DNA from: Prochlorococcus sp. AG-418-G23
GTDB taxonomy: Bacteria > Cyanobacteriota > Cyanobacteriia > PCC-6307 > Cyanobiaceae
Reading direction: 5' to 3'
Assembly (NCBI GenBank): GCA_003214195.1
Contig: QCLY01000012.1
Location: forward strand, 1 to 39,876
Length of the DNA stretch: 39,876 bases
Both the position numbers and the translations under genes were made by a program. Below the pieces are notes generated by a model. That model was not told the DNA's origin, searched no databases, and saw only the letters and a program-made list of their open reading frames with translations. Positions 29,775-39,876 of the stretch are shown in pieces (the first letter of the stretch is position 1; every line of letters starts with the position of its first letter).

Positions 29775-30143
29775 TTAATAAAAAGGAAATAACTTATTAA
29801 GCTTATTCTCGGCTCTTGCTCTTATTGAAGGAGTCATGTATTTGCTCCATATACTAAGTACTGCTGTGAGGGCGACAAAATCATCACTAAAACCAACTAA
29901 AGGCATAAAGTCAGGGAAAAGATCAAATGGCATAATCAAATATGCTAGAGCAGCCATTAATGAAACTCTCACTTGTGCAGGAGTATAAGGATCTAACGCC
30001 ATCTCCAAAACTTCTAATGCAGGTTTGGCAATTGTTCTTCCCGCTTTAATAAGAATCTTGATAATGATATTTTCATCAAATGTTGAACTTTCTAAAACTT
30101 CAGCATCATAGATTTTTTCTTGAGTTTTGTAATTCTCTTTCAT
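29775..30143 (-). CDS. DUF1232 (YkvA-like) protein
   Basis: A 122-aa protein with the DUF1232 core: ALAYLIMPFDLFPDFMPLVG followed by FSDDFVALTAVLSIW. The core has the P-x-D-x-x-P-D motif and a hydrophobic stretch that may be membrane-associated. The N-terminal 35 residues are variable. Function in the family is not established. It is the first gene of a pair with the HTH protein and lies 37 bases downstream of the sigma factor stop, so all three may be expressed together. Confidence 0.88.
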   Translation of the reverse strand: MKENYKTQEKIYDAEVLESSTFDENIIIKILIKAGRTIAKPALEVLEMALDPYTPAQVRVSLMAALAYLIMPFDLFPDFMPLVGFSDDFVALTAVLSIWSKYMTPSIRARAENKLNKLFPFY

Positions 30144-30180
30144 CCTTATAAATGAAATTTAAATATTTTTAATATAATTT

Positions 30181-31104
30181 TTAACTAATACTATCAACTA
30201 ATCCATTCTGTATCCCTGCTTTTCTAAGTTTTCTTAAAGCACGTTGAACAACTTGTCGGCAATATTCCCTGCTACAACTCATGTGTCTTGCAACTTCAGC
30301 TAAAGTTCTCCATTCATTTGAGCCGTCTAAACCAAATCTTAAGCTTACTATCTTTCTTTCTTTCTCAGTTAAATTTGCTTTATCTAATAACTTCCAAGCC
30401 GAGGCTGTCCTTTCAGCTAATTCGGCTAATTCCATTGGAGGAGTTTGATCACTTGGAAGAATATCAACTAACTCGGAAGGATCTGATTTTGATTTAACAG
30501 TGCCTTGGAGACTAACAGTGATGCTTCTCAATTCACAAGAAAGGAGTTCGTCAATTTCCTCTTTTGTTATTTTCATTTCTCCAGCTAGCTCATCACTAGT
30601 AGGTGGAATACCCTTAAGTTGCATAAGCTTTGATTTTGCTGATCTTAGTTTTGTAAGTTTTTCATTAATGTTAACAGGGATCCTTATCGTTCTACTTTGA
30701 GTTGACAATGCTCTATTTAAACCTTGCCTAATCCACCAATAAGCATAGGTGGAAAATCTATGTCCTCTAGACGGATCATATTTTTCTACGGCCCTTGTGA
30801 GACCTAATGTACCCTCCTGTATTAAGTCCAATAATTCTAATCCTTTCCCTTGGTATCTTTTGGCGAGGTTGACAACTAGTCTTAGGTTAGCTGTTATCAT
30901 CTCGTTTTTAGCTTTTTCACCAATTTTTATCTTTTTTCTCTCAGCTTCAGAGTATTCACAAGCGGGGCCATTACCTCCTGCCTCTTGACATCTATTAACA
31001 AGCACTACCATTTCTTGGACTTTTCTGCCCATTGTGAGTTCTCTTTCGGGAGTCAAAAGTTGATGACGCCCTATTTCACCAAGAAAATCGCTTAATGAAC
31101 TCAC
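30181..31104 (-). CDS. Group 2 sigma-70 family RNA polymerase sigma factor
   Basis: A 307-aa alternative sigma factor. It starts in region 1.2 (SDFLGEIGRHQLLTPERELTMG) and has no long region 1.1, as usual for cyanobacterial group 2 sigmas. Region 2 is nearly primary-like (ANLRLVVNLAKRYQGKGLELLDLIQEG, then RFSTYAYWWIRQGLNRAL, the -10 recognition helix). Region 3 and the region 4.2 helix-turn-helix (TLAEVARHMSCSREYCRQVVQRALRKLRK) complete it. The recognition helix SREYCRQVVQRAL differs from the primary sigma's SRERIRQIEAKAL, so -35 preference may differ. The start is GTG at 31104 with GAGG (31111-31114) 6 bases upstream. An 11-bp tandem repeat lies in its upstream region. Confidence 0.95.
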   Translation of the reverse strand: MSSLSDFLGEIGRHQLLTPERELTMGRKVQEMVVLVNRCQEAGGNGPACEYSEAERKKIKIGEKAKNEMITANLRLVVNLAKRYQGKGLELLDLIQEGTLGLTRAVEKYDPSRGHRFSTYAYWWIRQGLNRALSTQSRTIRIPVNINEKLTKLRSAKSKLMQLKGIPPTSDELAGEMKITKEEIDELLSCELRSITVSLQGTVKSKSDPSELVDILPSDQTPPMELAELAERTASAWKLLDKANLTEKERKIVSLRFGLDGSNEWRTLAEVARHMSCSREYCRQVVQRALRKLRKAGIQNGLVDSIS

Positions 31105-31164
31105 GATTTACCTCATTGTTGATATATTTAACTTATAGTCAATCCTGTATTAAGCCATACATGT

Positions 31165-31216
31165 AATAATTAATTAATAATTAATTAATAATTAATTAAT
31201 AATTAATTAATAATTA
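31165..31216. repeat. 11-bp tandem repeat upstream of the sigma factor gene
   Basis: The unit AATAATTAATT is repeated exactly four times (31165-31208), followed by eight matching bases of a fifth copy (31209-31216). It lies 60-112 bases upstream of the sigma factor GTG and 57 bases from the end of hisIE. The period is close to one helical turn. Confidence 0.9.
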
Positions 31217-31273
31217 TTAATTAGTTAATTAACATTATTTGTTAAAAATTTAGGTAAAAAATATAAATTTTAA

Positions 31274-31933
31274 TTATTTAATTTTTTTTCTTGATTCTAG
31301 AACAGCAAGTACATCTCTCCACTCAACCCCTTTGTGCTTAAGGGCTACTTGCAGATGATAGATTAAATCAGCAGCTTCATTTGAGATTGAATTTTTATCA
31401 TTATCTTTGCAAGCCATTATAAATTCAGCAGATTCCTCTCCTATTTTTTTCAAAATAGTATTACTACCTTTTGTTAATAAATGATTTGTGTAACTTTTTT
31501 CTGATGGATTTATTGATCTTTCGTTAATTGTATTGAATAATTCGGAGCAAATATTTGAGAAGGGAGTTGTTTTCTCTTTTTTATCACTTTGATTAATTTT
31601 GATTTCATTGAAAAAACAACTTTTTTCCCCAGTGTGACATGCTCCTGAACCATTTTGTTCAATCAAAAGGATTAGTGCATCATTATCGCAGTCGAATCTT
31701 ATCTCCTTAAGTATTTGGGTGCTTCCACTTGTAGCTCCTTTTCTCCAAATTTCGGATCTTGATCTACTCCAATAATGAACGTTTTTGGTTTCAAGTGTCA
31801 TTGTCAAAGATTCTTTGTTCATCCAAGCAAGCATAAGAATTGATCCGTCAAGCCAATCTTGTGCTATTGCAGGGATTAATCCATAATTATCAAAGCGTAG
31901 ATCCTCTATCGAAAAATTAGTTGAATAAGTCAT
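31274..31933 (-). CDS. hisIE: Bifunctional phosphoribosyl-AMP cyclohydrolase / phosphoribosyl-ATP pyrophosphatase
   Basis: Catalyses steps 2 and 3 of histidine synthesis. The N-terminal HisI domain (~1-115) has RSRSEIWRKGATSG, the metal-binding CDNDALILL and the cysteines of GACHTGEKSCFF. The C-terminal HisE domain (~135-219) has LLTKGSNTILKKIGEESAEF and NEAADLIYHLQVAL, the MazG-like helical pyrophosphatase. The ATG at 31933 (219 aa) is preferred; a GTG at 31957 would add eight residues that the family lacks. It is divergent from the PTPS-like gene, with about 60 bases between starts. Confidence 0.95.
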   Translation of the reverse strand: MTYSTNFSIEDLRFDNYGLIPAIAQDWLDGSILMLAWMNKESLTMTLETKNVHYWSRSRSEIWRKGATSGSTQILKEIRFDCDNDALILLIEQNGSGACHTGEKSCFFNEIKINQSDKKEKTTPFSNICSELFNTINERSINPSEKSYTNHLLTKGSNTILKKIGEESAEFIMACKDNDKNSISNEAADLIYHLQVALKHKGVEWRDVLAVLESRKKIK

Positions 31934-31996
31934 TATGTTCGTTATGTTAAGTCCCACTCAATGTATTTTATTAAAAATTATCCTAACAGTTAATTG

Positions 31997-32467
31997 ATGT
32001 ATATTCATTCTCTGAAATTTTCATGCAGCAAAAGTTACGAGGATTTTCCCTGTTCACATAGGCAATGGCGCCATGAAGGCCACTGCAGATTTGTGCATGG
32101 ATATTCAAGATCATTCACCTTTTGGTTTACTGCAAAAAAATTAGACCTAAATGGTTTTATTGTCGATTTTTCAAGTCTAAAGCCCCTAGAAAATAGACTA
32201 AAGGAGCAATTTGACCATACTTTTCTAATAAATAAAGATGACCCTTTGCTGAATTACTGGGAAAAATTACATGACTTAGATGCTTTAGATCTGAGAATTA
32301 TGGATAATGTTGGAATGGAGTTCACCTCTGAATTGATTTGGAGATGGGCTAATGAATACTTACAGGATAAGGATAAGGGCAGAACATGTTGTTGGAAAAC
32401 AGAATCAAAAGAAAATAAATCGAATAAAGCAAGTTATGAGAGAATTCCTGATTGGTTCAAATCTTAG
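31997..32467 (+). CDS. 6-pyruvoyl/6-carboxy-tetrahydropterin synthase-like protein (QueD/PTPS paralogue)
   Basis: A 156-aa T-fold protein of the PTPS/QueD family. It keeps the first zinc His (His21 in CSHRQW), the nucleophile Cys30 and His34 in CRFVHGY, GFIVDFSSLK, and the DH catalytic pair in FDHTFL. The second His of the usual C-x-x-x-H-G-H motif is Tyr36 here (H-G-Y). A Cys pair (RTCCWKTES) follows near the end. The sequence belongs to a distinct, well-conserved paralogue group with the HRQWRHEGHCRFVHGYSRSF block, so the reaction may not be queuosine synthesis. The start is ATG at 31997; the TTG just before it would add one residue. Confidence 0.82.
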   Translation: MYIHSLKFSCSKSYEDFPCSHRQWRHEGHCRFVHGYSRSFTFWFTAKKLDLNGFIVDFSSLKPLENRLKEQFDHTFLINKDDPLLNYWEKLHDLDALDLRIMDNVGMEFTSELIWRWANEYLQDKDKGRTCCWKTESKENKSNKASYERIPDWFKS

Positions 32468-32515
32468 ATTAAAGTTGTTATTTTTAATGTCATATAGGAT
32501 TCTTTAATTAGTTAT

Positions 32516-35098
32516 TTAATCAACATTTATCTCTCCATTAATCAGATAAATATTAATCTCGTCTTTATTAAGGTAATGATTATTCAATATATTATTTGAA
32601 ATTTTTGTCTCAATTTGTTTTTGAATAATTCTTTTTAAAGGCCTTGCACCATAGGTATGATCGAAACTATTTTCGACAAGTTGGTTTATTGCTTCATCCG
32701 TAATTTTAAATTTTAAGTTTTTTTTGTTAAGTCTTTTTTCTAAATGTTGAAGCTGGATTTTTGCAATTTCTTTTATGTCATTTAGTTCTAAATTATTAAA
32801 AATAACTATTTCATCAAGTCGATTTAAAAACTCAGGCTTAAAAAATTTTTTAATTTCATTATCTACAACTTTTTTAATTTCATTTGCATCTTCTTTTCTA
32901 ACTGATAAATCATTTATTGATTGACTTCCTAAATTACTTGTGAGAACAATGATTGAATTTTTAAAATTGATTGTACGACCTTGACCATCAGTAATAATTC
33001 CATCATCAAGAACCTGTAAGAGAATATCTAAAATATCTTTGTGAGCTTTCTCTATTTCATCTAGGAGTATTAATGAATAAGGATTTTTGCGTACAGCTTC
33101 AGTTAGTTGACCGCCTGATTCGAAACCTACATATCCAGGAGGCGCACCTATAATTTTGCTCACTGAATGCTTTTCCATATACTCAGACATATCCAGTCTT
33201 GTAATTGAAGAATTTGAATCGAATATTATTTTAGCTGTTACTTTACTTAGCTCTGTTTTCCCAACACCAGTTGGACCTAAAAAGAGAAAACTGGCTAATG
33301 GCTTGCTTGGATCATTTAGACCAGTCCTTGATCTCTTAATGGACTCTGCAACCGCCCTAATTGCACTATCTTGACCAATAATTTTTTCTTTAAGGATTGA
33401 CTCGAGGCTCAAGAGTTTATCTTTTTCTGACTGGTTTAAGTTCTGTACTGGAATAGAGGTCCACTTTGAGACAACTTCTGCAATATCATCAGAAGTTACC
33501 TCTTGTCTTAAAAGACTTTTATCTCCATTTTTTTGAGAATTTACTAAGGAATCACTTTTTTCTTTCAATTTTTTTTGCAAAGAATTTAAAGTTCCAAATT
33601 CTAATTCTGCTGCTTTGTTGAGATCAAAACTCCTTTTAGATTGATCTATTTGCAATTGAACAGATTCAATTTCTTCTTTTATGGTGCTAATCTCATCAAT
33701 TTCACCTTTTTCTTTTTTCCATTGAGCGCCTAATTCTGCCTGTTTATCTTTAAGGGATATAAGTTCATTATTGATTTTTTTTAATCTTTCTATAGAAAAA
33801 TCATCCGTTTCTCTTTTTAAAGATAATTTTTCCATTTCAAACTGTAGAACTTTTCGATCAATTTCATCAATTTCTTCTGGTTTGGAAGTTATGACCATAT
33901 TTAATCTTGAGGCTGCTTCATCGATTAAATCTATTGCTTTGTCAGGAAGAAATCTATCGTTAATATATCTTTCGCTAAGGGTTGCAGCAGCAACTAAAGC
34001 ATTATCAGAAATTCTCACACTATGATGAACTTCGTATCTTTCTCTTAATCCTCTTAAAATTGATACAGTATCATCTATTGAAGGAGCATGAACTTTTATC
34101 TTTTGAAATCTTCGTTCTAAAGCAGGATCTTTTTCTATATTTTGTTTATGTTCATTAATAGTTGTAGCACCAATACATCTAAGTTCTCCCCTCGCAAGCA
34201 TTGGTTTTAATAGGTTGCTTGCATCTAAAGAACCTCCACTAGCACCTGCACCAACTACCGTATGAATTTCATCAATAAAAAGAATAATCTTACCGTCTGA
34301 TTCTTTCACTTTCTTTAGAATATTTTTTATTCTTTCTTCAAATTCTCCACGATATTTTGCTCCAGCTAAAAGTGAACCCATATCTAATGAAATTAGTTTC
34401 CTATCTTGTAGCGCAGAAGGTATATCGCCATTAATAATTCTTTGAGCTAACCCTTCTACAATGGCTGTTTTCCCAACCCCAGGTTCTCCAATAAGAACTG
34501 GATTATTTTTTGTTCTTCTACTCAATATTTGAATTGTTCTTCTAATCTCTTCATCCCTACCAATAACAGGGTCTAAAATCCCATCTCGTGCAGATTGAGT
34601 TAGATCAATACCATATTTTTCCAAAGACTCATCAGAACTATTAAGTTCATTTTTTACTGCCGGATCTGACTTCATTTTCTTTATAATTTCAAGAAATTCT
34701 GGAATAACTTTTTGATTTAAAATTTGAAATCCATATTTATCATCATAAGTGAAACCGTAAACTAAGTGTTCTGTTGATATCACTACATCATTCAAAGTAT
34801 TTTTAATATCATTCGCCTTCAAAAATATTTTGTGAAGAGTATCACCAATATATAAATTATCTTGTTTATTTTTCATTTTTGCCTTCGCATTTAATGAAGA
34901 GATTATTTCCCTCTCAAGATCTTTTATATTTACATTATTTTTTTTAAAAATCTTTTTTGTAATATTGTCATCTTTTATAAGAGCTAATAATAAATTATCA
35001 GAGTCTACATTTTGTTGATAATTTTTATAAGCAATTTCTTTGGCAAAAATAAAACAGTTCCAAGCAGAATTTGAGAATTCGCTTGGAACTGTTTTCAT
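32516..35098 (-). CDS. clpB: ClpB-type disaggregase (AAA+ chaperone)
   Basis: An ATP-driven chaperone that pulls proteins out of aggregates with DnaK. The 860-aa protein has a divergent N-domain (1-145), AAA-1 with Walker A GEPGVGKT at 204-211 and pore loop KYRGEF, Walker B IILFIDE, a long coiled middle domain (~400-525) that marks ClpB rather than ClpC/ClpA, and AAA-2 with GPTGVGKTE, pore loop GYVGFE and Walker [10 protein letters not shown]. There is no ClpP-binding tripeptide loop that I can see. The sequence is Lys/Asn/Ile-rich and diverged, suggesting the second (non-heat-shock) ClpB paralogue of cyanobacteria. Codons 2-16 form a perfect 15-bp inverted repeat. It lies 67 bases downstream of petE. 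Confidence 0.94.
35045..35095 (-). terminator. Terminator-like 15-bp perfect hairpin inside the clpB start
   Basis: Read on the - strand, AAAACAGTTCCAAGC (35095-35081) and GCTTGGAACTGTTTT (35065-35051) are exact complements. The 15-base loop can pair further (GAATT with AATTC, one bulged T, loop CTCA). The 3' arm ends in TTTT and continues ATTTTT (35050-35045). This is the full form of an intrinsic terminator, yet the bases are codons 2-16 of clpB. It could end petE transcripts or gate clpB expression. Confidence 0.75.
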
Positions 35099-35100
35099 TA

Positions 35101-35125
35101 ATCAAAATTAGGGTATGCCCGTAAT
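35101..35125 (-). terminator. Candidate terminator between petE and clpB
   Basis: On the - strand ATTA-C-GGG (35125-35118), loop CATA, CCC-TAAT (35113-35107): a 7-bp stem with one bulged C, followed by TTTT (35107-35104) and GAT. It lies 41 bases after the petE stop and just before the clpB ATG. A TTGACT (35139-35134) and TAATAT (35133-35128) just upstream could instead be promoter elements of clpB. Confidence 0.5.
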
Positions 35126-35165
35126 GAATATTAAGTCAAAAAGGGTGTTTAACTATTGAGAAGAT

Positions 35166-35516
35166 TTATTCAACAATAACTTTACCTACCATCCCAGCGC
35201 CTCTATGTGGCTCGCAATAGTAATCGTAAGTTCCAGCAGTATCAAATGTTTCTTCCCAAGACTCTCCTGGAGCAAAAGCTAGGTCCGCATGACTTAATTC
35301 CTCATGCCCATCAAAAACAGCATTGTGAGGGGCAAGTTTATTATTGACGAATTTAACTGTATCACCAGCGCTAATGGTTACTGTACTTGGTTCAAATGCA
35401 AGCATTCCGGCATCTGTTCCAAGTTTTACTTCAACAGTCTTAGCTGAAACTGATGAAATACCTAGACCCAGAGTTAAAACTATTGCGAATAACCCTGCAA
35501 AGATTGAACGTAACAT
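35166..35516 (-). CDS. petE: Plastocyanin precursor
   Basis: A soluble copper protein carrying electrons from cytochrome b6f to photosystem I in the thylakoid lumen. The 116-aa precursor has a signal peptide with a hydrophobic core (~7-20) and likely cleavage after VSA (25). The copper ligands are all present: His64 (APHNAVF), Cys101 and His104 (YYCEPH) and Met109 (GAGMVGK). It is a single gene upstream of clpB on the same strand; terminator-like hairpins lie at 35101-35125 and inside the clpB start. A -10-like TATAGA lies in the 59-base gap upstream. High expression is expected. Confidence 0.98.
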
Positions 35517-35575
35517 AATAAAAATTTGCTTATCTATACATATTACAAGGCTTTGGTAACCTAACTGCGAGAATT

Positions 35576-36559
35576 TTAATTGTTATTACAGCTTGGTAAT
35601 TTTGATAGTCTTAAAATATCATTCAGTGACTTGGCATGACTTTTAAGTTTAAAAGTCTCAGGATTAGTGATGGGGACATGATTAAAGTCATATTTTTTGA
35701 TACTGAAGCTATCCCAAGGAGTAGTTTGGATGGGGAGAATTCTTAATAATATTTTTAGAATTTTTTTTGTAAGCGGTATCGCAAAAAATCTTCTCATATT
35801 ATGTTTCTTTAAAAGTGTAATTATGGCATCATCAATTGAAATGAATTTTTGACCTAGCACAAATTTTCTAAAGCCTTTGTATTGCTCTTCTTTATGATTT
35901 TTAATTAGAAACCCGCAAATCTGGGCGATATCATTTGCATGTATAAAGTGAAATTTAGAATCGAGTTTTAAAAATCTTGCTAACCAAAGCCATTTCCCAA
36001 TTTCTTTCAATCCACTAGTTAAATAACTCACAGGATATTTACTTTTTTTTCCAAGATTCCCTCCAAAAACCAAGGTAGGGAAAACAGCGAATGTTTTTTC
36101 TGCAAATGAGCTTTCTCTAAGTCTCTGGAAACATTCATATTTTGTTTGAATGTACTCTGTTCCATAAATCAATGATTCCCTCATTAATTCTGTTTGGGTA
36201 TCAAGAATGCTAGCTGTTGAAAAATAAATAATCTTTTCTAACTTTTCAATATCAAGCATTTCTAGTAATTCTTCAAAAGCTTTAATATTTACTTCATAGG
36301 CTCTTTTGGGATCTCCCCAAGCTGTAGCAGTATGTATTAGGTAATTAATTTGACTAATTTCCTTTTTATACCTATTTGATTCCCTGATATCGCACACCAT
36401 TAACTTGACTTTTTTATTTTCTTGAACAGAAATTGGTAACTTACTTTTGTCTCTGACCATGAGATAAAGCCTGAATTTTGTGTTTTTCAAAAACCAATCA
36501 ACTAAATATTGGCCAACACATCCATTAGCGCCTGTTATTAATAAGTTTTTATATCCCAA
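35576..36559 (-). CDS. NAD(P)-dependent epimerase/dehydratase (extended SDR)
   Basis: A 327-aa Rossmann-fold protein. The nucleotide-binding motif [14 protein letters not shown] (TGxxGxxG) is at 7-20, the VCDIRES acidic segment at ~57, the [11 protein letters not shown] strand at ~73 and a Tyr-x-x-x-Lys site in [10 protein letters not shown] (~135). The substrate region is not diagnostic; sugar nucleotides, steroid-like or reductive tetrapyrrole substrates are all possible. It starts 8 bases after the hemE stop (TTG at 36559), so it is probably in one transcript with hemE, and a pigment-related role is a guess from that. No transmembrane segment is evident. Confidence 0.88.
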
Positions 36560-36567
36560 GACTTTGA

Positions 36568-37608
36568 TTAGTAAGTGAGTTTTTTTCCATGTTCAAAAAA
36601 TGTTTTAGCATTTTCTTCTGGAGTCCCTGGTAAAATCCCATGACCCAAGTTAAGAATATATTTCCTGTCTTTAATTTTATTGAAAGTATTATCTATCCTT
36701 TCTTTTATTGATTCTTCGTTTCCGAATAAAATGCCAGGGTCAACATTACCTTGAATTCCAATCCCCCTGGGGATTCTTTTACAAGCCTCTTCAATATCTA
36801 CTGTCCAGTCTAATGAGATTATATCTACTCCAGTTTTTGCCATTCTTTCCAGTACTCCAGCACTTCCTGAAATGTAAAGAATTATCGGTGTTTCAGGGTA
36901 TTCCGACTTTACAATTTCAATAACTTTTTTCTGATACGGCCCAGCAAAGATATCGTAATCTTGTGGGCTTAGTTGGCCGGCCCATGAATCAAAAATTTGT
37001 ACTACTTGCGCTCCAGATTTTATTTGATATTTAAGATATTCTCCAATAGATTTTGCAAAATGATCAAGAAGTTTATGAAGTAAATCTGGTTCATTAAAAG
37101 CCATTGATTTTATTAAAGAATAATTTTTACTGCTTTTACCTTCAACTACATATGCAGCAAGCGTCCAAGGTGCGCCAACAAAACCTAAAACTGTTGCCTC
37201 ATTATTCACATCTTTTTTAAGTGAAGTAAGAACTTGCCCAACAAATCTTAAACTCTCAGTTGGATTTAATTCTTTTAAATTTTCTACCTGGTTAAGAGTT
37301 CTTATTGGGTCCTCAATAATTGGACCTTTACTTTCTATTATTTCAAAATTTATACCCATCCCTGGAAGAGGTGTGAGAATATCTGAAAAAAGGATCACAC
37401 CATCCGGTTTGAAGGCATGAAAAGGCTGCATTGAAATCTCATATGATAGTTCTGGATTTTCAGACCTCTCTCTAAAGCTTGGGTAACGCTCCCTTAAATC
37501 TCTATAGATTTTCATATATCTTCCTGCTTGCCTCATCATCCATACTGGAGGCCTATTTACTTTTTTACCTAAAGCGGCAGAAAGTAGTAGTGGTAAATCT
37601 TGACCCAT
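36568..37608 (-). CDS. hemE: Uroporphyrinogen III decarboxylase
   Basis: Decarboxylates the four acetate chains of uroporphyrinogen III to give coproporphyrinogen III, feeding both haem and chlorophyll. The 346-aa TIM barrel has the signature [14 protein letters not shown] (~19-32) with the substrate-binding arginines, the catalytic Asp in [26 protein letters not shown], and the C-terminal [15 protein letters not shown]. It is followed by the SDR gene on the same strand. The 115-base gap upstream, after glgB, contains a doubled TTATATGAA motif (37681-37689 and 37693-37701). Confidence 0.98.
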
Positions 37609-37680
37609 TTTTCAATTCGATATTCTTAAAAAATTAAAATCCAACTTAAAAATCTTACAATGTAAAGCAGAGCAAAAACG

Positions 37681-37701
37681 TTATATGAACATTTATATGA
37701 A
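37681..37701 (-). repeat. Tandem 9-mer repeat upstream of hemE
   Basis: TTATATGAA at 37681-37689 and again at 37693-37701, a 12-base period, about 73-93 bases before the hemE ATG. The same 9-mer stands about 100 bases before chlN at 5286-5294. In A/T-rich DNA single copies are unremarkable; the pairing is the unusual part. Confidence 0.5.
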
Positions 37702-37723
37702 GCACTAAGTTAAATGAGCCTTC

Positions 37724-39876
37724 TTATTTTTTTGATTGATGTTTAAAGATACTCACGCTTAATGGGGGCAAAGCAAGTTCTAGAGCATTTTGATAATCAT
37801 GAATATTGTAATTTATAGTTTCTTTACCTCCCATATTTCCTTTGTTACTACCCCCGTATCTAGAGCCATCTGAATTAAATATTTCTTTATAGAATCCTTC
37901 CACAGGGACACCTACTTTGTATGACCCATGAGTATTGGGTGTAAAGTTAGCAACGACAACAAGCCACTCATTGGTATCATTTTCTCTTCTCATGAAACTT
38001 ATAACTGAATTAGATTTGTCATTACAATCAATCCATTGGAATCCATAAGGGTCGAAGTCATTTTTCCATAATGCAGGTTCATTTTTGTAAAGAGCGTTTA
38101 GGTCATCAATCAAGTTTCTGATACCTTTATGAGGCTCAAATTCTAGTAACTCCCATTGCAGATCATCCCAAACATTCCATTCTTGTCTTTGCCCAAATTC
38201 CATCCCCATAAATATCGTTTTTTTACCAGGGTGGGTCCACATATAAGTTAGTAATGCTCGAGTATTTGCATATTTCTTCCAGTCATCGCCAGGCATTTTA
38301 TGCAAAAGATGACTTTTCCCATGGACAACCTCATCATGACTAAGTGCAAGCATAAAGTTCTCTGTATAGTTATATGTAATTGAGAAAGTTACACTATTTT
38401 GATGGAATTGCCTAAACCAAGGATCTATTTCAAAATAATCCAGCATATCGTGCATCCATCCCATATTCCATTTCAAGTTAAATCCTAACCCTCCCATGTC
38501 AGTTGGTTTGGTTACCATTGGCCAAGTTGTTGATTCTTCAGCGATAGAAAGTGCACCTGGGAAATGTTGGAAGAGTACATGATTAGCCTGTTGAAGAAAT
38601 TTAACAGCTTCTATATTTTCATTCCCACCATTTTCATTGGGTATCCACTCTCCATCTGGACGTAGATAATCTCTGTAAAGCATTGAAGCTACAGCATCTA
38701 CTCTTATGCCATCAATATGAAACTCTTCAAACCAATAAACGAGGTTGGCTACTAAGAAATTTCTTACTTCGTTTCTGCTGTAATTAAATATTAGGGTTCC
38801 CCATTCTTTGTGTTCTCCTATGCGTGAATCTCCATGTTCATAAAGATGACAACCATCAAAAAATGCTAAACCATGCTTATCTTTTGGAAAATGACCAGGC
38901 ACCCAATCAAGAATTACGCCTATGCCCTCTTCATGACATTTATTTACAAACTCTCTAAATTCATTTGGGGTGCCAAATCTACTTGTTGGTGCATACCAGC
39001 CTGTAACTTGGTATCCCCATGAACCATCGAAAGGATGTTCAGATATTGGCATTAGTTCAATATGAGTGAATCCTCTCTCTTTTACGTAAGGGATGAGTTT
39101 CTCGGTTAGTTCTGGATAAGTTAATAATCTTGTTCCGGGTTTTAAATCGGCTGCAGGCACTGGCTCTCTTGGATCACCATTGTCCTCCAGATATTTATTA
39201 TCTGTTGATTCATGGAGCCAACTTCCTAAATGCATTTCATAAACTGAAATCGGATTGTTTATTTGACTAGAAGAATCTCTATTAGAAATCCAAGAACTAT
39301 CATTCCAATTAAAGTTTTTCAATTTTGAAACTATTGAACCATTTTGAGGCCTGATTTCATGAAGGAATCCATATGGATCAGCTTTTTCATAAATATGACC
39401 TTGTTGTGTTCTTATTTCATATTTGTACTTGTCTCCTTCTTTCATTATTGGCATGAATAGTTCCCAAATGCCCCCTAATCTTTTTTGCATTGGATGATGT
39501 CTCCCATCCCAAGAATTTATATCTCCAATTATCGAGATTGATTTTGCATTTGGAGCCCAAATACAAAACATGACACCTTTTTGATTCTTATCTTCAATAA
39601 TATGGGCTCCCATTTTTTCCCAGATATGGTGATGATTACCTTCTGCAAAAAGATGCCTATCAACTTCTCCCATCCACTCTTCTCTATAAGACCAAGGGTC
39701 ATGTTGTGTATGAGTAATACCCCCTCTTGAAATATTTATTTCGTAATTAAAATTGGGATTTTCAGGCAGGATTGCTTCAAAAAGCCATTTGTGATTAATG
39801 TTTTCAGCTTTATAGGTTTTATTTTTAAAATTTATTTTAACTTCGTCCGCTTCAGGCATCCATACCCTTATTATCC
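37724..39876 (-). CDS. glgB: 1,4-alpha-glucan branching enzyme (N-terminus outside the window)
   Basis: Makes the alpha-1,6 branches of glycogen. The frame stays open to the right edge: upstream of the first visible Met (39859) it continues in frame as IIRVW, so the ATG is internal and the gene is cut by the window. About 716 residues are visible; full-length cyanobacterial GlgB is usually ~750-770 aa. Parts in order are an N-terminal carbohydrate-binding region, a second CBM48-type domain ([20 protein letters not shown]), and the GH13 barrel with [17 protein letters not shown], the nucleophile Asp in [12 protein letters not shown], the acid/base Glu in [10 protein letters not shown] and the third acidic residue in [10 protein letters not shown]. 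The C-terminal beta domain is complete. Confidence 0.97.

Follow-up and report, generated by a model that had tools for sequence, protein, structure and literature searches.

In Escherichia coli, the frd terminator is known to attenuate the next gene, ampC (PMC11838884), and RNA 3′ ends occur inside open reading frames (ORFs), one of them (aceK int) having been attributed to intrinsic termination (PMC7815308). In the cyanobacterium Synechococcus elongatus, predicted terminators inside transcripts often lower the transcription of downstream ORFs (PMC3219970), and Cyanobacteria have no Rho (PMC13289151). Here we analyse a stretch of 39,876 nt from Prochlorococcus sp. AG-418-G23 (GCA_003214195.1, contig QCLY01000012.1, positions 1–39,876, forward strand; henceforth the window), in which the plastocyanin gene petE is followed on the minus strand by clpB, whose codons 2–18 encode an RNA hairpin and a U-rich tract, as they do in a large set of Prochlorococcus, which are minute marine phototrophs. 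Most probably the two together are an intrinsic (Rho-independent) terminator of petE encoded within clpB, a reading that we favour because the structure is conserved in the sense-strand RNA, stands in a reciprocal relation to terminators in the petE-clpB spacer and is absent outside the genus in the loci examined. Throughout, "the genus" is that of the window genome, while L numbers denote loci and G numbers genomes.

The hairpin at the start of clpB

The order on the minus strand of the window is petE (35516–35166), a 67-nt spacer (35165–35099) and clpB (35098–32516). Directly after the clpB ATG (35098–35096) come the 5′ arm of the outer stem, AAAACAGTTCCAAGC (35095–35081, codons 2–6), then 15 nt (35080–35066), the exact complement GCTTGGAACTGTTTT as the 3′ arm (35065–35051, codons 12–16) and ATTTTT (35050–35045). 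This is the 15-bp inverted repeat that an earlier, sequence-only reading of the window had pointed out, and its coordinates and description hold. The five additional pairs which that reading expected from the spacer bases also form, as GAATT/AATTC, beyond a one-base bulge (a T) and around a 4-nt loop (CTCA). The U-rich tract TTTTATTTTT (35054–35045) spans codons 16–18 (Phe-Ile-Phe), and its first four T also pair within the outer stem. The whole hairpin and T tract lie inside the 860-codon ClpB ORF (32516–35098).

An 81-nt segment folds with a minimum free energy (RNAfold) of −26.7 kcal/mol, against a mean of −10.7 (sd 2.9, z −5.6) in 200 shuffles, none of which was as stable, and no in-frame 60-nt window of the clpB gene is more stable than the hairpin region. 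The stem itself amounts to about −25 kcal/mol; its first base is +4 of clpB, just behind the AUG. As expected of an intrinsic terminator, the stem-loop is stronger than background and is directly followed by a U-rich tract, though an A interrupts the latter. A consensus terminator scan of positions 30000–39876 reported no terminator, presumably because it limits loops to 3–8 nt and excludes bulges.

The petE product (116 aa) matches TIGR02656 at 128 bits (cut-off 87.85) and PF00127. The product of clpB, an ATP-dependent chaperone of 860 aa, has TIGR03346 (ClpB) as its best NCBIfam match at 1183 bits, below the curated cut-off of 1232, and is a divergent ClpB. Its Pfam Clp_N match starts at residue 19, and the N-terminus has Phe8 and Ala12-Trp13, as in the ClpB of many loci of other genera (MQPTAEQFTEKAW...); within the genus, Phe8 and Ala12 never vary among the 140 clpB loci of the codon table, 139 of which also have Trp13. 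The start of the reading frame in the window is genuine, in agreement with the earlier suggestion that the encoded residues resemble the beginning of ClpB proteins.

Conservation of the stem within the genus

Matches were obtained in 196 of 200 genomes of the genus, and we used 144 clpB starts: within a match list of limited length, every one whose match extended to the N-terminus of clpB, with that of G050 added. petE lies upstream of clpB on the same strand in 143 of these loci; in the other, L051, the contig ends before petE, and this locus was left out of the spacer counts and the tree. All 143 spacers measure 59–78 nt, and the range for the genus as a whole is 59–84 nt. Of the 15 outer pairs, 11 or more form in 143 of the 144 loci (15 pairs in 102, 14 in 29, 13 in 11 and 11 in one), and six form in L143, while all five inner pairs are kept in 137. 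Folding of the first 60 nt of clpB likewise sets L143 apart, at −6.4 kcal/mol, from the other 143 loci, all of which reach at least −16.6 kcal/mol in stability. A stem broken in close relatives without compensation, the outcome that the sequence-only reading had named as telling against it, was thus not seen among the 144 loci except in L143. That part of the expectation has to be qualified for L143, where the stem is broken, and for two further genomes with weak stems (G363 and G395, see below), all of them distant and all with a terminator in the spacer.

For the analysis of base pairing, 40 sequences were chosen for diversity from 116 distinct ones, leaving out L061, L074 and L143. In this alignment 96.0% of the pair cells are standard, 22 cells show changes on both sides, as against 6.3 for shuffled data, and covariation scores 0.189 (0.133 in shuffles), values that none of 500 shuffles attained. 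Pair 12–40, for example, is UA in 25 sequences, CG in 10 and UG in five, and is never broken. On a tree of 143 loci, the changes at all 20 pairs comprised 106 that keep the pair, 48 that break it, 14 that make one and 3 others. Sliding the 3′ partners of the 15 outer pairs left only 11–36 pair-keeping changes and reduced the paired cells from 97% to 35–56%. Among the exceptions to Watson-Crick pairing (143 loci, without L143) there are 180 G-U cells, about half of them from the single pair 8–44, 9 A-C or C-A cells and 56 other mismatches. This preponderance of G-U over A-C indicates selection on the petE-clpB sense RNA, as expected of an intrinsic terminator, and not on antisense RNA or DNA; the same counts disfavour an antisense or DNA-cruciform function.

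Codon choice points in the same direction (140 loci, leaving out L061, L074, L113 and L116). Pro5 is encoded by CCA in 129 of 130 cases, though the clpB sample as a whole uses CCT more often for Pro. Ala12 is always GCT or GCC (140 of 140) and never GCA, although GCA is the commonest there. In the U-tract, Phe16 and Phe18 are TTT in 225 of 229 cases. Loop codons behave differently, Ser9 being drawn from four codons and Phe8 being split between TTT (77) and TTC (63); in other words, wobble bases are near-frozen in the stem and free in the loop. When the first 20 codons of the window gene were synonymously recoded following clpB codon usage, 9 of 20,000 recodings folded as well as the native sequence. 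Over 143 loci (L061 was left out because of its stop) the figure was 415 of 57,200, with 314 of the 415 coming from L143. Recodings of native stability are so rare that the hairpin is not a chance product of the ClpB protein sequence. The sequence-only reading had proposed aligning clpB starts to see if complementary changes preserve the stem at synonymous sites. Its idea that these bases serve at once as code and as RNA structure has gained from several comparisons (conservation, recoding, tree changes, codon bias, G-U excess and covariation), and it is well supported by the sequences that the stem is an evolved RNA structure, kept by evolution, whose bases double as protein code.

The hairpin is also kept where the clpB frame is broken within about 50 codons, in G082, G181, G113 and G059, with 14, 14, 13 and 15 of the 15 outer pairs, respectively. 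In G082 (L061) the 15-nt loop between the arms (codons 7–11) is present as its exact reverse complement, giving a TGA at codon 9, perhaps the footprint of template switching at a palindrome. One base is inserted just after the stem in G181 (L074), shifting the frame, and the frames of G113 (L113) and G059 (L116) break near codon 50. In G361 (L381) there is one base fewer after the stem than in L141, and again the frame is shifted and the stem kept. These early breaks could be either sequencing errors or real decay. In one group of loci (L122–L125) ATT replaces the clpB ATG, and an in-frame TTG lies directly upstream.

A covariance model built from the 40 sequences found the clpB start as the sole site at E < 1e-6 (on one or both strands) in 14 of 15 genomes of the genus; the next-best sites in those 14 were at about 1e-3 or worse, and G107 had nothing below 0.0029. 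G171 is a closed relative; 400 kb of it, in which a simple caller gave 397 ORFs, contain 41 terminator-like hairpins, of which five reach −18 kcal/mol or better: the clpB hairpin, its antisense reading, two intergenic ones and one in the interior of an ORF. We considered whether hairpins near ORF starts are a general habit of the genome and rejected this, as this part of G171 has four sense ones within 60 nt of such a start, that of clpB at −22.5 kcal/mol and the remaining three much weaker (−12.1 to −13.8). Rfam contained no family at gathering score, the best hit being an unrelated snoRNA (30.7 of 80 bits). Carriage by phages was likewise set aside: the one exact-pattern match in IMG/VR is a 4-kb contig with the host clpB and the tail of petE, likely a chimera. 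In this contig (L274, 1–2075) an ORF that presumably resembles T4-like phage gp32 runs in frame into the host petE tail, which is followed by host clpB.

Terminators in the petE-clpB spacer

With our own finder, a hairpin was called terminator-like if its stem was followed by at least 5 T in 8 nt. The loci outside the genus numbered 45, made up of 40 from the 141 other-genus genomes (the 20 best-scoring and 20 chosen) and five from a contig scan, which were placed outside the genus by title and identity, without a genus label. In other genera of the family, 25 of 27 loci have a terminator-like hairpin no more than 150 nt from the petE stop, and clpB follows at a distance of 262–1419 nt in the 20 of these 27 in which its start could be placed. 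At the clpB start, a terminator-like hairpin was found in none of the 45 loci. The contig scan yielded mostly distant clpB genes, along with four loci labelled Prochlorococcus, of which L194 and L195 carry the clpB start hairpin and L198 and L200 do not. Many of the other-genus loci (L154–L173) share a recurring CATACGGT some 15–40 nt before the clpB ATG, possibly a promoter or regulator site.

Within the genus, a terminator-like site covers clpB codons 1–20 in 141 of 143 loci (the finder gave none for L044 and L143), and 137 of 143 spacers, that of the window locus (L001) included, are without a terminator-like hairpin, as expected if the unit has no other terminator. The six exceptions are L109 and L115, with stems of −9.7 and −9.3 kcal/mol, the AT-rich palindromic stems of three members of the L122–L125 group, L123–L125 (−23.6, −9.6 and −9.4), and L143 (G107), the locus with the broken clpB stem, whose spacer holds AATACTCACTATGCAAATAGTGGGTATT followed by TTTTTTTA.

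The reciprocity between the two positions was assessed in 166 genomes of the genus searched with the covariance model, 143 of which matched at E up to 1e-6. We followed up the 20 genomes listed among the 23 non-matching ones, together with G361, G395, G369 and G358, and five of these 24 have petE and the whole clpB start contiguous, while G001 breaks off inside the hairpin and G377 in the spacer. G358, G369 and G361 keep the hairpin (−23.6, −16.4 and −15.9 kcal/mol) and have no spacer terminator at −7 kcal/mol. G395 and G363 have weak clpB hairpins (−8.4 and −7.7 kcal/mol, with 12 and 11 of the 15 outer pairs possible), and in their spacers a stem ACTACCC/GGGTAGT and T-rich sequence lie about 20 nt after the petE stop. 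A spacer terminator is therefore present in all three genomes with a failing clpB hairpin (G107, G363 and G395), whereas among the 145 loci that bear the hairpin and have a readable spacer only 5 possess one. Calculated by hand and uncorrected for relatedness, a random draw gives this split with a chance of 56 in 529,396. Taken with the comparison to other genera, these three genomes lend support, at the level of sequence, to the role in petE termination that had been proposed from the window alone.

All three are distant members of the genus (68–71% ClpB identity to the window). In protein trees, from which G093 was excluded because of its frame breaks, they stand beside the hairpin-bearing group of G121, G162 and G134, with a low printed support of 53. 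A search for close relatives of G107 among 40 genomes drawn gave no other clpB start with more than 48% identity to its own.

Proposed role and comparison with known systems

The roles suggested in the sequence-only reading were termination of petE transcripts, attenuation of clpB and a stress-responsive block on initiation, and on present sequence evidence petE termination is the best supported of the three. In the genus the spacer has shrunk to about 67 nt, and the terminator would lie within the clpB coding sequence, around the conserved Ala-Trp codons (GCTTGG), the complement CCAAGC encoding Pro5-Ser6. Polymerase leaving petE would make the hairpin and in most cases release in the U-rich stretch at clpB codons 16–18, and the 3′ tail of the petE mRNA would then be a fragment of clpB. 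We infer the actual termination, its efficiency and genome streamlining as the cause, and also suppose that clpB mRNA is made by incomplete termination, perhaps raised by a ribosome on the clpB AUG.

Several points weigh against this reading. The tract is interrupted by an A and four outer A-U pairs use up part of it. Canonical intrinsic terminators close only 22% of the transcription units of S. elongatus (PMC13289151); petE might therefore do without one, and two of the 27 other-genus loci (L169 and L189) show none after this gene. Nor is the reciprocity strict, as the five hairpin-bearing loci with a spacer hairpin include a strong one (L123, −23.6 kcal/mol), and the spacer stems have 3–4 G-C pairs in the three replacements and 1–3 in those five, which is not a sharp difference. 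G395 and G363 would pass by pair count, stability being what fails, and G395 matched the covariance model at 2.2e-7. Moreover, G107, G363 and G395 may represent only one or two replacement events, or in part the ancestral state. In G372, clpB has decayed and petE has no terminator reaching −7 kcal/mol within 170 nt. In the covariation analysis, neither the number of doubly changed pairs (4, against 2.8 in shuffles; 86 of 500) nor that of further pair types (16 against 14.3; 51 of 500) is significant. Finally, much of this pattern would also be expected if the hairpin did no more than protect the petE 3′ end against exonucleases.

Two genomes are worth describing in their own right. In G372 (L379, L351) the clpB behind petE has nine stops in aligned residues 44–366 and lacks the N-terminus, and the genome has a second, diverged plastocyanin-like gene (57% identity). 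In G144 (98% complete) neither the petE orthologue nor this clpB turned up, the only hits being a weak one to a cupredoxin and one to ClpB at 45%, which may be a linked loss or an assembly gap.

The closest rival keeps the terminator and adds an attenuator to it: a ribosome at the clpB AUG would cover the 5′ arm, block the hairpin and let polymerase on, with clpB output tracking ribosome availability. We consider this possible, though the odds are against it. The stem runs from base +4 of clpB, inside the footprint that an initiating ribosome, by its size, occupies, and the spacer is partly conserved before the ATG. There, TTGACT and CATACC, 16 nt apart (35139–35112, minus strand; 14–41 nt before the ATG), form a promoter-like pair that is partly conserved in the consensus of 122 spacers. 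By inference only, clpB RNA starting from this pair would begin just a few bases ahead of the ATG, nearly leaderless and leading straight into the hairpin; it is absent from the promoter-scan list, and promoter matches in 30000–39876 are not enriched (39, against 42.1 in shuffles). The attenuation of ampC by the frd terminator supplies a precedent (PMC11838884). On the other side, the conserved Ala-Trp codons fix where the 3′ arm lies, so that its geometry may be a coincidence, and genomes with an early-broken frame keep the hairpin, which argues that a ribosome gate is not needed for its upkeep there. Somewhat more doubtful still is a genus-wide dual-code switch, in which a ribosome starting clpB opens the petE terminator and clpB mRNA is made only when initiation beats folding. 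If true, a streamlined cell would couple a protein-rescue chaperone to the availability of ribosomes with no regulator protein in between.

Other explanations dispense with termination at this site. The hairpin might mainly shield from exonucleases a petE 3′ end that arises by processing or by termination at another place. The strong stem in the sense RNA would suit such a role, and noncanonical cyanobacterial 3′ ends without strong structure, the protection of which is unclear, point to other ways of end formation (PMC13289151); yet a pure stabiliser needs no U-tract, whereas TTT is kept here at synonymous sites, and the elements present in genomes with a failing hairpin look like terminators, each being a stem with a T-rich tail. 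We therefore hold this to be unlikely. ClpB is a heat-shock chaperone and the stem abuts its start codon, which could suggest control of clpB translation alone, by a heat- or stress-sensitive block of initiation with no link to petE. A heat-melting block is unlikely because the stem, at about −25 kcal/mol, is far from marginal and starts after the AUG; in these respects, and in having no Rfam family match, it departs from RNA thermometers of the ROSE and fourU type. Translation control also leaves the link with spacer terminators unexplained, and clpB lacks the hairpin at all 45 loci outside the genus; we give this reading very little weight. As to a functionless by-product of the encoded protein and of codon use biased towards AT, a genome rich in AT does give T-rich DNA for Phe and Ile regardless, but the recodings (most of the stable ones coming from L143, the one locus without the hairpin), the tree changes, the codon bias and the covariation already contradict it, and we assign it practically no credence.

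If petE termination at this hairpin is confirmed, it shows how a regulatory RNA signal can be accommodated, in a compact genome, within the protein code of a neighbour, and amino-acid and codon choices at the ClpB N-terminus would have been shaped by a terminator. More generally, conserved N-termini call for caution in compact genomes, as the constraint behind them can be on the RNA and not on the function of the protein. The natural stem variants, the three genomes with spacer terminators and the early-broken clpB frames that retain the stem make both termination in Rho-less marine cyanobacteria and its competition with translation at a start codon directly testable.

In the open-licence articles searched, we found no case in which a gene has its conserved terminator within codons 2–18 of the next, and nothing on transcripts of the Prochlorococcus petE-clpB junction; petE and clpB are not mentioned in the available portions of PMC5607370 and PMC2897979, and a term search in that of PMC2518516 gave no match for either. 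The nearest counterparts are the petE terminators of other genera of the family, likewise a stem-loop with a T-rich tail close to the petE stop (25 of 27 loci). Those lie in a spacer of 262–1419 nt (20 loci), whereas here the element is inside the coding sequence of the next gene from its second codon. The E. coli frd/ampC element precedes the ampC coding sequence. Like it, the hairpin would be one terminator for an upstream unit in the path of a downstream gene (PMC11838884), with the difference that stem and U-tract are here codons 2–18 of clpB and not ahead of the coding sequence. The partial terminators of S. elongatus are likewise internal to transcription units, and double coding with a downstream start region is not described for them in the available part of PMC3219970. 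The RNA ends inside E. coli ORFs belong to internal RNAs of the gene itself and, in the available part of PMC7815308, none is a conserved terminator of an upstream gene at codon 2, which is what the petE-clpB hairpin appears to be.

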